Source: Spirochaetota bacterium (GTDB taxonomy: Bacteria > Spirochaetota > Spirochaetia > Treponematales > UBA12059). From it: a stretch of DNA of 32,482 nucleotides. The DNA is taken from NCBI GenBank assembly GCA_022703215.1, contig JAKLEE010000006.1:1-32482 (forward strand). Reading direction: 5' to 3'. The translations under genes and the position numbers were made by a program. The notes under the pieces are model-generated. The model was not told the origin of the DNA and made no database searches. It worked only from the letters and a program-made list of their open reading frames with translations. This document shows, one piece after another, positions 4,401 to 32,482 of this stretch. Each line of letters opens with the position of its first letter. The stretch's first letter is position 1.

Positions 4401-4470
4401 GAGCTCTGTCCCCGTCTCGACCGAGCTCTGTCCCTTGCGCGGCGAGCTCTGTCCCCGTTCCGACCGAGCT
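4401..4470. repeat. Cluster of the GGGGACAGAGC repeat, minus-strand orientation
   Basis: Three copies of GAGCTCTGTCCC(C) start at 4401, 4423 and 4444, with a spacing of 21-22 bp. A fourth truncated copy (GAGCTC) is at 4465. The second copy ends in CCC, not CCCC. They lie between the divergent MFS and glutaredoxin genes, just upstream of the glutaredoxin -35 box. The region 4264-4478 otherwise shows no gene. Confidence 0.85.
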
Positions 4471-8211: not shown

Positions 8212-8240
8212 AGTCTAGCAGACGCGGCGGGCTCTGTCCC
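8212..8240 (-). promoter_or_regulatory. lysO promoter whose -35 lies in a repeat copy
   Basis: On the minus strand GGGACA (8240-8235), 17 bp, TAGACT (8217-8212), then 6 nt to the ATG at 8205. GGGACA is part of the first copy of the GGGGACAGAGC repeat and differs from TTGACA at two positions. Confidence 0.45.
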
Positions 8241-8283
8241 CTCCGAGGGGAGCTCTGTCCCCGCGGCGGGGAGCTCTGTCCCC
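8231..8283. repeat. Cluster of the GGGGACAGAGC repeat, three copies in minus orientation
   Basis: Copies are at 8231-8241, 8250-8262 and 8271-8283, 20-21 bp apart. On the minus strand each inner copy is preceded by complementary C-runs, e.g. CCCCTC G GAGGGG, so each unit is a G/C hairpin with an ACAGAGC foot. The cluster fills most of the gap between lysO and the next gene. Confidence 0.85.
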
Positions 8284-16640: not shown

Positions 16641-16830
16641 GGGGACAGCGCGTCCCGGCGGAGGGACAGAGCCCGTTACGGCGTGCCGGCGGGGCTCCAC
16701 GCGTCCCGGCGGCGGGGACAGAGCCCGTCCAGCGCCCCGCGCGGGGACAGAGGCCATCGAGCCCCACCGAGGGGGACAGAGCCCGGGCGCAGCGGGCGGC
16801 TCCGCGTGTCCCGCGCGGGGACAGAGCTCG
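16641..16830. repeat. Six-copy cluster of the GGGGACAGAGC repeat between phoU and phoB
   Basis: Copies begin at 16641, 16663, 16714, 16743, 16772 and 16817, all in plus orientation and unevenly spaced (22, 51, 29, 29 and 45 bp). Several are preceded by GTCCC, e.g. CGTCCCGTCGGCGGGGACAG, so GTCCC pairs with GGGAC to form a hairpin with an AGAGCCCG foot. No gene is seen in 16616-16890. The block precedes the phoB promoter. Confidence 0.85.
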
Positions 16831-28464: not shown

Positions 28465-28956
28465 TTACAACGAGATGGTCGAGACGCCACCGCCGAGACC
28501 GTCATCGAGAGCCTGCCCGGCCTCGGGATCCGGCATCCAGCGCTCGCCGTCTATCAGGAAGATATAGGCATACGAGGCGCCCTTGCGGAGCGGCACCGTG
28601 ATGGACCAGGTTCCGGACGCGTCGCGCTCGAGGGCGTAGCCTTCGCCCGTCCAGTCGTTGAAATCGGCGGCCAGGCGGACCTCGTTCGCCTCGGGGGCTT
28701 CCAGCACGAAACGCACCTGCGTTGAGGCGCGGTCGCCGATGACGGCGAGGGTCGCCAGCGAAGACAGCACCGCGACAAGCGCGGCGGCCGCGACGTAACG
28801 CACGAGCCTTGAACGGACGAAGGCCGGGAACGCGAGTACGGCGGGAGCGCGGTCGGGAGCGCCGAGGACGCGCAGCCTGGCCATGACGGCCTCGGCGCTC
28901 CGGGCGGCCCGTTCGGGTTCTCGCTCGAAAAGCTGTTCGCGCTCGGACTGCTTCAT
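28465..28956 (-). CDS. Membrane-anchored CBM48 (glycogen-binding E-set) protein, candidate anti-sigma factor
   Basis: 163 residues. A basic and acidic cytoplasmic stretch (1-50, EREQLFEREPERAARSAEAVMARL) precedes one membrane helix (51-74). The extracytoplasmic part (79-163) is an isoamylase N-terminal/AMPK-beta type carbohydrate-binding module: VRFVLEAPEANEVRLAADFNDW, then WSITVPLRKGASYAYIFLIDG and the ERWMPDP segment. The ATG overlaps the sigma factor stop (ATGA). This size and gene order match membrane anti-sigma factors, but no zinc-binding HxxxCxxC motif is visible, so the anti-sigma role is inference. Such a protein could sense glycans outside the membrane. Confidence 0.75.
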   Translation of the reverse strand: MKQSEREQLFEREPERAARSAEAVMARLRVLGAPDRAPAVLAFPAFVRSRLVRYVAAAALVAVLSSLATLAVIGDRASTQVRFVLEAPEANEVRLAADFNDWTGEGYALERDASGTWSITVPLRKGASYAYIFLIDGERWMPDPEAGQALDDGLGGGVSTISL

Positions 28957-29555
28957 ATACCACCTCTACCCTTCGCGGGACTCTCCGGTTGCGGGCGCTT
29001 TTCGAGCAGGGCCGCCAGTTCCTTCCTGGCCCGGAAGAGGCGCGACTTGACCGCCTCTTCCCCGAGTCCGAGAGTCTCGGCCACCTCAGCCACCGGAAGG
29101 CCGCCGAAATAGTAAAGCTCGACGGGAGCCCGGCGCTCGGCGGGAAGGGCGCCGAGCGCGGAACGAAGCGCCTCGGCGTCGAGGGCGGCAAGCGCGAACT
29201 CCTCCGGTCCTTGACTTCTCGGATCCGCGAGCTCGTCGAGCGTATCCTCGCCGTCCGCGGCGCGCGCGAAACGCGGCAGGCCGGCGCGGACCTTGTAACG
29301 GCTTCGAACGCGGTTGGCGGCGATGGCAAACAGCCAGGATCGGAAGCTTCGCTCCAGATCGAAGGAGCGCAAGGAGCGGAATGCGCGCACGAACACGTCC
29401 TGCACGGCGTCCTCGGCGTCCTCTCGGTCGCCGAGCCGGGCCGCGCAGAAGCGGTAGACTGCATCGGAATAGCGGTCCACGAGGCCCCTGAAGGCTTCCA
29501 CCTCGCCGGCGAGCACGCGCGAGGCGAGGTCGGCGTCATCCGACCCGGTTTCCAT
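28953..29555 (-). CDS. RNA polymerase ECF sigma factor (RpoE-like)
   Basis: 200 residues from the ATG at 29555. Region 2 spans about 24-90 with VYRFCAARLGDREDAEDAVQDVF and RSFRSWLFAIAANRVRSRYK. Region 4 spans about 130-182 with LPAERRAPVELYYFGGL and VAEVAETLGLGEEAVKSRLFRARKEL, a helix-turn-helix for -35 recognition. It is a two-domain extracytoplasmic-function sigma factor. The frame extends to 29708, but that part overlaps a repeat and the divergent gene's upstream region. It is cotranscribed with the CBM48 membrane protein by a four-base overlap. A -10-like TATATC lies 8 nt before the ATG. Confidence 0.93.
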   Translation of the reverse strand: METGSDDADLASRVLAGEVEAFRGLVDRYSDAVYRFCAARLGDREDAEDAVQDVFVRAFRSLRSFDLERSFRSWLFAIAANRVRSRYKVRAGLPRFARAADGEDTLDELADPRSQGPEEFALAALDAEALRSALGALPAERRAPVELYYFGGLPVAEVAETLGLGEEAVKSRLFRARKELAALLEKRPQPESPAKGRGGI

Positions 29556-29563
29556 GGAGGAGA

Positions 29564-29569
29564 GATATA
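29564..29569 (-). promoter_or_regulatory. -10 box 8 nt before the sigma factor start
   Basis: TATATC on the minus strand (29569-29564) is followed by 8 nt of pyrimidines and the ATG at 29555. No convincing -35 hexamer is seen, so an alternative sigma factor or weak promoter is possible. Confidence 0.4.
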
Positions 29570-29616
29570 GCACGCGGACGGCGGAAAAATCAGGGGCGGG
29601 GCATGGCGCCGGTTTC

Positions 29617-29666
29617 AAGCTCTGTCCCCGATTTCCCTGTCCCCGATTTCCCTGTACCCGATTTAC
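29617..29666. repeat. Three tandem 15-bp units related to the GGGGACAGAG repeat
   Basis: CTGTCCCCGATTTCC (29622-29636), an identical unit (29637-29651) and CTGTACCCGATTTAC (29652-29666), preceded by AAGCT. The first copy includes the GCTCTGTCCCC core of the dispersed repeat. They occupy the shared upstream region between the sigma factor and the divergent gene at 29760. Confidence 0.85.
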
Positions 29667-29759
29667 GGCAACCGGAAGCGCCTGGCAGTGGTAACCCACG
29701 GCGTACACCTACCGGATGCCGCGCCCCGCGCGGAAAGCCGGACCTGCGGAGGTATGAAC

Positions 29760-30221
29760 ATGAAGAAGCTGATGATCGTCATCGCGTTGCTTGCCGCCGG
29801 AACCATGGCCTTCGCCATGGGGGCCCGCGAAGACATGAGCGAGGAGGAGGCCCTGGCCCGCATCGACGCGAAGATCGCCGAGCTCGGCCTGACGCTCGAG
29901 GACGCGGGCGCGGCGAAAGAGGCCTTCCTCGCCATCGAAGCCGCGGGCGTCCGCTTGCGCGAGGCTCTCAGCCTGACGGAAGAGAGCCTGGAGGAAGGGC
30001 TGCGCGCCGGGGACATGCTCCAGCTCGCAGAGCAGGTCCGGGAACGGATCAAGACCGGCGACAGCGCCGAGCAGCTCAAGGAGATGATCCGCGAGCGCAT
30101 CCGCACCGCGACCAGGGCTGGCGGCAACGGGAACGGCCAGGCGCCCGGCGGCGCAGAAGGAGCTGGCGCCGCAGCTGGCCCCGCGGCTGGTGCCGGGCCG
30201 GGCGTCGGACTCAGGCCGTAA
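29760..30221 (+). CDS. Small exported helical protein, unknown function
   Basis: 153 residues from the second of two close ATGs: GGAGG lies 7 nt before 29760 but only 1 nt before the ATG at 29754. Signal peptide MKKLMIVIALLAAGTMAFA, cleaved near residue 19. The mature protein is acidic and helical (EEEALARIDAKIAELGL, EQVRERIKTGDSAEQLKEMI), with a Gly/Ala/Pro tail. It recalls small periplasmic stress proteins in general character only; no family is assigned. It is divergent from the ECF sigma operon and is a reasonable candidate target, by position. An intrinsic terminator follows. Confidence 0.75.
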   Translation: MKKLMIVIALLAAGTMAFAMGAREDMSEEEALARIDAKIAELGLTLEDAGAAKEAFLAIEAAGVRLREALSLTEESLEEGLRAGDMLQLAEQVRERIKTGDSAEQLKEMIRERIRTATRAGGNGNGQAPGGAEGAGAAAGPAAGAGPGVGLRP

Positions 30222-31935: not shown

Positions 31936-32482
31936 CTAGCGGATGTCGAAGTAGCGCCGCTCGATGGCAGCCACCCGGTCCGCCGCGTCCTGCCACCAGG
32001 CACTCTCGGGGAACTCGTCGCGGACGCGCTTGTAGGCGGCATGAGCCTTTCGGATATCGCGCAGGGGACCGGGTTCCTCGTAGACGCGGCCGAGCAGGTA
32101 CCAAGGCTCGTCGCCCGAGTTCGGATAGAGCGACACGAGGCGCTCGAGGCTCCGGCGCGCATTCTCGAGGCGGCCTGCGGCCATTTCGTCGCGGGCGAAG
32201 CGGAGCAGGTCGCCGTGCGAGTCAGAGGCAGGCGCGTTGGCGGCGGCACTCGGGGAAGCCGCGGCGGGGACAGAGCCCGCAGTGGGGACAGAGCCCGCAG
32301 TGGGGACAGAGCCCGTGCTAGCGGCGCCGGGAACCACGCCCGAAGCCGCAGTGGGGACAGAGCCCGTGCTTGCGGCGCCGGGAACCACGCCCGAAGCCAC
32401 GGCGGGGACAGAGCCCGCGGCGGCGGCCGGGGGAACCACGCCCGAAGCCGCGGCGGGGACAGAGCCCGCGCTTGGAGTGACA
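31936..32482 (-). CDS. TPR-like protein with a repeat-encoded Ala/Val/Pro/Ser-rich region (cut by window edge)
   Basis: The frame is open to the right edge, so the start lies outside. The visible part has 181 codons. The C-terminal 90 residues resemble tetratricopeptide/YfiO-like units: DLLRFARDEMAAGRLENARRSLERL, YPNSGDEPWYLLGRVYEE, IRKAHAAYKRVRDEFPESAWWQ, ending AIERRYFDIR. This suggests a protein-protein interaction domain, as in envelope lipoproteins, but no signal is visible. Before it lies a low-complexity region of GSVPTA and ASGVVPGAAST units, encoded by tandem copies of the GGGGACAGAGCCCG element. The copies are spaced 18 or 51 bp, all multiples of three, so the frame stays open. Confidence 0.8.
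   Translation of the reverse strand, partial: VTPSAGSVPAAASGVVPPAAAAGSVPAVASGVVPGAASTGSVPTAASGVVPGAASTGSVPTAGSVPTAGSVPAAASPSAAANAPASDSHGDLLRFARDEMAAGRLENARRSLERLVSLYPNSGDEPWYLLGRVYEEPGPLRDIRKAHAAYKRVRDEFPESAWWQDAADRVAAIERRYFDIR
32266..32468. repeat. In-frame minisatellite built from the GGGGACAGAGCCCG repeat
   Basis: GGGGACAGAGCCCG begins at 32266, 32284, 32302, 32353, 32404 and 32455. The first three are 18 bp apart; the rest are 51 bp apart with a unit containing GGGAACCACGCCCGAAGCC. All spacings are multiples of three. The tract lies in the coding sequence of the last gene and encodes 6- and 17-residue repeats. Confidence 0.9.

Follow-up and report, generated by a model that had tools for sequence, protein, structure and literature searches.

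Does a membrane protein that carries a CBM48 module control the ECF sigma factor encoded beside it, and if so, what would the module sense? The question is raised by the 32,482-nucleotide stretch of DNA analysed here (the window), which is contig 490 of a draft genome of 2.97 Mb that is 87% complete. From this stretch alone, the original prediction had proposed that an ECF sigma gene and an overlapping gene for a membrane-anchored CBM48 protein form a sigma/anti-sigma pair.

The domain search of the sigma protein returned Sigma70_r2 (E 7e-17) and Sigma70_r4_2 (E 4e-16), and the sigma70-ECF superfamily model matched it with an E value of 4e-32. The protein consists of regions 2 and 4 only in about 200 aa, which assigns it to the ECF (group 4 sigma70) factors. 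Consistent with this class, a regulator gene is adjacent, its start overlapping the sigma stop as ATGA, and predicted promoters with an AAC-type -35 signature lie at two places. The product of the overlapping gene scored 36.3 bits against CBM_48 in Pfam (cut-off 22.4; E 7e-9), and both this score and its beta-sandwich fold place it in the CBM48 family. The architecture and coordinates of the two genes and their ATGA overlap, all predicted earlier, were confirmed by the reading frames, the domain matches and the structural model (Table 1). Two promoter-like sites, zinc-bearing relatives and a wider conserved operon were found in addition.

Table 1. Positions of the genes, protein parts and promoter-like sites of the locus within the window.
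Feature	Position	Strand	Basis or remark
ECF sigma factor gene, 200 aa	28953-29555	minus	start ATG at 29555; Sigma70_r2, Sigma70_r4_2 and sigma70-ECF matches
Gene of probable CBM48 anti-sigma factor, 163 aa	28465-28956	minus	CBM_48 match, zf-HC2 homologues, model
Residues 14-30, amphipathic cytoplasmic helix, motif adxVMaxl	28867-28917	minus	model; equated with class I helix 4
Residues 45-76, membrane helix, alanine-rich start	28729-28824	minus	model, conservation; A57 invariant
Residues 78-163, extracytoplasmic CBM48/AMPK-beta-like module	28468-28725	minus	Pfam, fold; W102 and W140 at AMPK-type ligand positions
P0003, exported all-helical repeat protein, 293 aa	27529-28410	minus	third operon gene; downstream homologue in relatives and distant loci
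P0004, exported helical protein, 155 aa	29754-30221	plus	divergent from sigma; homologues likewise divergent in family
Promoter-like site GCAACC-N16-GGTA(GA)	28967-28992	minus	inside sigma 3' end, 36 nt before CBM48 start codon
Promoter-like site GCAACC-N16-GGTA(AC)	29668-29693	plus	about 60 nt before start of divergent exported gene

In the AlphaFold model of the CBM48 protein, a short helix (14-30) is followed by a long membrane helix (45-76) and a beta-sandwich (78-162), the latter with pLDDT mostly >85. The best PDB fold matches of the sandwich were the AMPK beta subunit and CBM48 enzymes, with a TM-score of 0.88 on 1z0m. Because the positive residues R48, R50 and R53 lie near the N-terminal end of the membrane helix, an N-in topology is expected; together with the model, this bears out the predicted arrangement, in which a short segment in the cytoplasm leads through one membrane helix to an extracytoplasmic CBM48. 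Ahead of the single cytoplasmic helix the model has 13 residues only, and class I helix 1, which binds sigma4, and the three-helix bundle are absent from it. A candidate for class I helix 4 is the helix with the family motif, which is found again in most of the 49 sigma-linked homologues, and this helix may bind sigma2. Judged by model and motif, the window protein is one that retains only the last anti-sigma helix, the helix-4 equivalent. To our knowledge, a single cytoplasmic helix would be the smallest membrane anti-sigma segment. In class I pairs the sigma2-binding element is helix 4 and the sigma4-binding element helix 1, with helix 2 not critical (PMC7406223). Covariation between the sigma factors and helix 4 over the 49 pairs showed no preference for sigma2 over sigma4. 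As the sigma4-contacting helix of class I factors is missing from the window protein, its inhibition could be weak.

Taken alone, the window CBM48 protein matched no known anti-sigma domain in the domain searches, and the Hx3Cx2C/HxxxCxxC zinc motif is indeed absent from it, as the original prediction had noted. In its closest outgroups and sister families, the CBM48 protein begins with a canonical zinc anti-sigma domain, MM-x-C...HxxxCxxC (C..Hx3Cx2C), and in the sister families this domain stands before the same membrane helix and CBM48. The zf-HC2 model matched 10 of the 26 close homologues (best E 8.5e-8). The window protein and 13 family relatives lack the motif; in the sigma tree of the 49 linked pairs, the 14 zinc-less family members formed one clade (100/100), nested in a zinc-bearing spirochaete clade (99/93), and L039, another member of the window's family, retains the motif. 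The sigma tree shows what appears to be a single loss of the zinc domain inside the family. Since the zinc-less clade is nested among zinc-bearing members and L039 still has zinc, the window protein is best read as descending from a zinc anti-sigma factor and having become shorter. Other zinc-less N-termini were found in the Nitrospirota loci L140 and L145 and in L191, L194 and further lineages, those of L191 and L194 being short. The absent motif had been taken to indicate a different type of anti-sigma factor. This part of the original prediction did not hold, because the absence is a derived loss in a zinc-bearing family, and because the motif is missing from about 44% of the class I anti-sigma domains known (PMC7406223).

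Strong homologues of the CBM48 protein (E below 1e-19) were found in 26 spirochaete genomes at 27 loci, with 59 relatives searched. Wherever the contig is long enough, in 25 relatives, a sigma orthologue lies directly upstream of the CBM48 gene, and a P0003 homologue lies directly downstream of the anti-sigma gene in every locus whose contig extends to it. Such repetition in 26 genomes shows that the pairing of sigma and CBM48 is not due to chance. A collection scan and a phylum-wide search extended the trio of sigma, CBM48 protein and P0003 family to Nitrospirota (L140, L145) and Kiritimatiellales (L148), and further spirochaete lineages were also positive. Conservation of the gene pair, which had been named earlier as a check, was thus observed within the phylum and beyond it. 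The closest named records are both from uncultured organisms, JADFDI010000010 (Spirochaetes bacterium QR_Bin.15) and JAFGNN010000057 (Spirochaetales bacterium Zod_Metabat.547), and no plasmid copies of the system were found. The phylum also has many exported proteins of about 250 aa that carry two CBM48-like domains (L212-L224, L226, L230); their genes are not linked to sigma genes, and they were set aside. In Nitrospirota, a lipoprotein-like CBM48 gene lies immediately before the sigma gene (L140:3944-4354 and L145:3878-4252), near copper-type ATPase and methionine-rich genes.

The two exported proteins, P0003 downstream and P0004 divergent, had been described as belonging to no recognised family, and this was upheld: both have signal-like N-termini, and neither matched a Pfam family. 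The model of P0003 consists of all-helical repeats, with pLDDT of about 98 over the helical part, and its fold search gave no significant PDB match. P0004 represents a second family of helical exported proteins. In the profile search, it matched a gene inside the same operon in the Nitrospirota contig L140 (2e-14), and because this homologue sits within the operon, P0003 and P0004 are both part of the system. In many other families, an exported beta-rich frame of about 300 aa overlaps the P0003 homologue by 1 nt. The L140 gene in this position matched the porin model BBP2_2 (9e-11), and the other beta-rich frames after P0003 homologues gave no match at the cut-off. Homology between the barrel-like genes of Spirochaetota and Nitrospirota was not supported, as they agree only in position, export and beta-rich character, and no such gene is present in the operon of the window or of its family. 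Metal resistance was also considered as a function; there are copper-type genes next to the Nitrospirota loci, and in L035/L036 the locus is followed by a Metal_resist gene. The window has neither, so that this is a lead only.

An unbiased de novo dyad search of the 420 bp upstream of sigma genes gave GCAACC-N16-GGTATA as top pattern, found in 14 independent groups versus at most 4 in shuffled sequences. When all loci were scanned for GCAACC-N16-[GC]GTA or GCAAC-N17-[GC]GTAT, the signature was counted 41 times in the 65 kb that surround the genes (from -1300 to +1200 relative to the start of the CBM48 gene) versus once in 276 kb of flanks. Known ECF promoters have AAC in the -35 element, which the signature resembles. 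It takes two placements, one directed toward the divergent exported gene and away from sigma, the other before the CBM48 start within the sigma 3' end; with the strict pattern, the latter lies 33-36 nt before the CBM48 start in 20 loci. The window has two such sites, where 0.005 would be expected per 2.5 kb, and they are two of the three GCAACC-N16-GGTA matches in the whole draft genome. Their -10 elements, GGTAAC and GGTAGA, differ from the family consensus GGTATA. Coding constraint was rejected as the origin of the GCAACC site before the CBM48 gene, because the site is kept at or past the sigma stop codon in L134, L135, L144 and others. Given its distance of 33-36 nt, the predicted transcript start falls at the CBM48 start codon, and the transcript from this site may be leaderless. 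We conclude from this distribution that, very probably, the sigma factor transcribes the gene of its own inhibitor as well as those of the two exported helical proteins.

Away from the locus, matches to the exact signature are few, and the candidates are lipoprotein genes in congeners (L113/L114; L108-L110), which are too weak to claim a wider regulon. In two of these congeners (L113:1127-1152, L114:1089-1114), a lipoprotein-like gene (about 608 aa) has its start codon 38 nt after the signature and is a candidate for a more distant target of sigma. In another family (L060, L062), the divergent gene under the same signature encodes an unrelated exported protein, with a weak TOBE-like match in L062, suggesting that the target gene changes and the promoter stays.

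A dispersed repeat was also observed in the window. GGGGACAGAGC (GCTCTGTCCCC) occurs 17 times there, where 0.07 would be expected, and the draft genome has 93 copies versus 0 of the reversed control. It is located at 4403-4456, 8231-8283, 10244, 13381, 16714-16827, 29619 and 32266-32465, often in short tandem arrays, and one array (29619-29664) occupies part of the gap between the sigma gene and the divergent P0004 gene. The open frame 31936-32481 at the window end contains the repeat, and the encoded protein has the repeats GSVPTAASGVVPGAAST; apparently the DNA repeat has become part of coding sequence.

The computed architecture, conservation, zinc-bearing homologues, promoter signature and common fold are best explained by a self-contained ECF sigma/anti-sigma unit with its own promoters, in which the CBM48 protein would be the inhibitor, and we hold this explanation with high confidence. 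The cytoplasmic N-terminus of the CBM48 protein would keep sigma at the inner membrane, in the window protein by one helix, fewer than the two of CnrY. One helix would span the membrane and present the CBM48 domain on the periplasmic side. A periplasmic signal read by CBM48 would then release sigma, most likely by intramembrane proteolysis, which we infer from the single alanine-rich membrane helix with its invariant A57 and from the site-2 protease encoded in the genome (Peptidase_M50, 3e-55). Free sigma would activate promoters of the GCAACC-N16-GGTATA type, and thereby its own inhibitor with P0003 on one side and P0004 on the other.

The zinc-bearing homologues, the conserved pair and the shared promoter signature make it very probable that the CBM48 protein acts as anti-sigma factor of the adjacent sigma, as originally predicted. 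It could otherwise be an unrelated envelope protein that is merely co-transcribed with sigma, as the window protein alone has no known anti-sigma domain; the zinc anti-sigma domain of its homologues, the sigma linkage across phyla and a promoter of its own with the same signature argue against this, and we consider it very improbable. Less remote, though still improbable, is that the window version has decayed and no longer inhibits, with sigma controlled by its own transcription. The N-terminus has been shortened from about 75 to about 45 residues, leaving one cytoplasmic helix, and the zinc domain and sigma4-binding helix are gone. However, three congeners (86-88% identity) keep the reading frame, the ATGA coupling, the membrane helix, the helix-4 motif and CBM48 intact, the short N-termini of L191 and L194 are likewise linked to sigma genes, and CnrY inhibits with two helices only (PMC7406223).

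With the CBM48 protein as the probable inhibitor, there are two candidates for what its outer domain reads, a glycan on the two-tryptophan face or the exported partner proteins. W102 is conserved in 58 of 58 sigma-linked homologues and W140 in 51 of 58; we take them to be the equivalents of W100 and W133 of AMPK beta1, the ligand tryptophans, and their conservation favours a carbohydrate face that has been kept. Position 132, presumably Lys126 of AMPK beta1, is mostly Asn among the homologues and Ile in the window, so that glycan binding may be lost there. The alpha-glucan sensing proposed at first was therefore upheld in part: both ligand tryptophans are conserved, but position 132 is Ile and no glucan-metabolism or polysaccharide gene was found linked to the operon. 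That missing gene suits a CBM48 that serves the same anti-sigma factor as a protein-interaction domain without sugar, reading P0003/P0004 or, elsewhere, the barrel-like protein, as in outer-membrane surface signalling. The P0003 family is the most constant partner, the beta-rich exported frame follows it in many other families, with one BBP2_2 match, and AMPK-type modules also form protein contacts. On the other side, pure scaffolding would not need ligand-site tryptophans kept over such great distances, and the operon of the window's family has no barrel gene. A sugar-free protein contact is a serious possibility, if somewhat short of an even chance, and between glycan and protein ligands the balance is nearly equal, with a slight lean to glycan.

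Taken jointly, an AMPK/glycogen-type CBM48 may have been recruited as the periplasmic glycan sensor of a widespread, undescribed ECF system, with an envelope-spanning module of sigma, CBM48 anti-sigma, helical periplasmic proteins and barrel-like outer-membrane protein, and with single-helix inhibition in the window lineage; that all these parts hold together is doubtful. The analysis provides a probable cognate inhibitor, a promoter sequence and a core regulon for a sigma family of many uncultured spirochaetes and Nitrospirota, so that tests of the system can begin at once. Should CBM48 sense a glycan, a sugar module of the energy-sensor type would be tied to envelope gene control; if it senses protein partners, a new signalling line from outer to inner membrane would result. 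The series from zinc domain through long zinc-less domain to single helix offers a natural test of the minimal size of an anti-sigma domain.

No CBM48 anti-sigma factor was found in a full-text literature search of partial coverage, in line with the original statement that none was known; an ECF group number for the family may exist. The system resembles the class I membrane pairs (RseA, RsiW, RskA, ChrR type; PMC7406223) in a sigma gene overlapping the gene of an N-in single-pass anti-sigma factor, in the Hx3Cx2C motif of its relatives, and in the ECF-type AAC -35 promoter and autoregulation, here predicted. It differs from them in that the window outer domain is CBM48 and only the helix-4 equivalent is kept, helices 1-3 being gone. 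The SigI/RsgI biomass sensors of Clostridium thermocellum also combine a single-pass anti-sigma factor with a carbohydrate-binding module outside, and the RsgI modules are CBM3, CBM42 and others, with CBM48 not among the listed sensors (PMC12203970). RsgI, however, is built with an N-domain of its own and a periplasmic domain that cleaves itself; neither was matched here, and no RsgI-type Pfam match was found in the 26 members. SigI is not an ECF factor; the window sigma is of the ECF type. CnrH/CnrY/CnrX of Cupriavidus metallidurans, in which CnrX is a metal sensor, shares a minimal helical anti-sigma segment and a co-encoded exported helical partner; unlike the window protein, CnrY binds sigma by two helices and lacks a CBM48, and no sequence relation between the two systems was found. 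In FecI/FecR/FecA surface signalling, as in the related families here, sigma, a membrane anti-sigma factor and a barrel-like outer-membrane gene stand in one operon; a FecR domain was found in none of the 26 members, and no TonB-dependent receptor among the neighbouring genes. The CBM48 modules of AMPK beta and GlgB share the fold and both ligand tryptophans, but they are cytoplasmic and bind glycogen, whereas the window module is membrane-anchored, faces the periplasm and is encoded next to a sigma factor. Overall, the system very probably works like the membrane-bound ECF/anti-sigma pairs.
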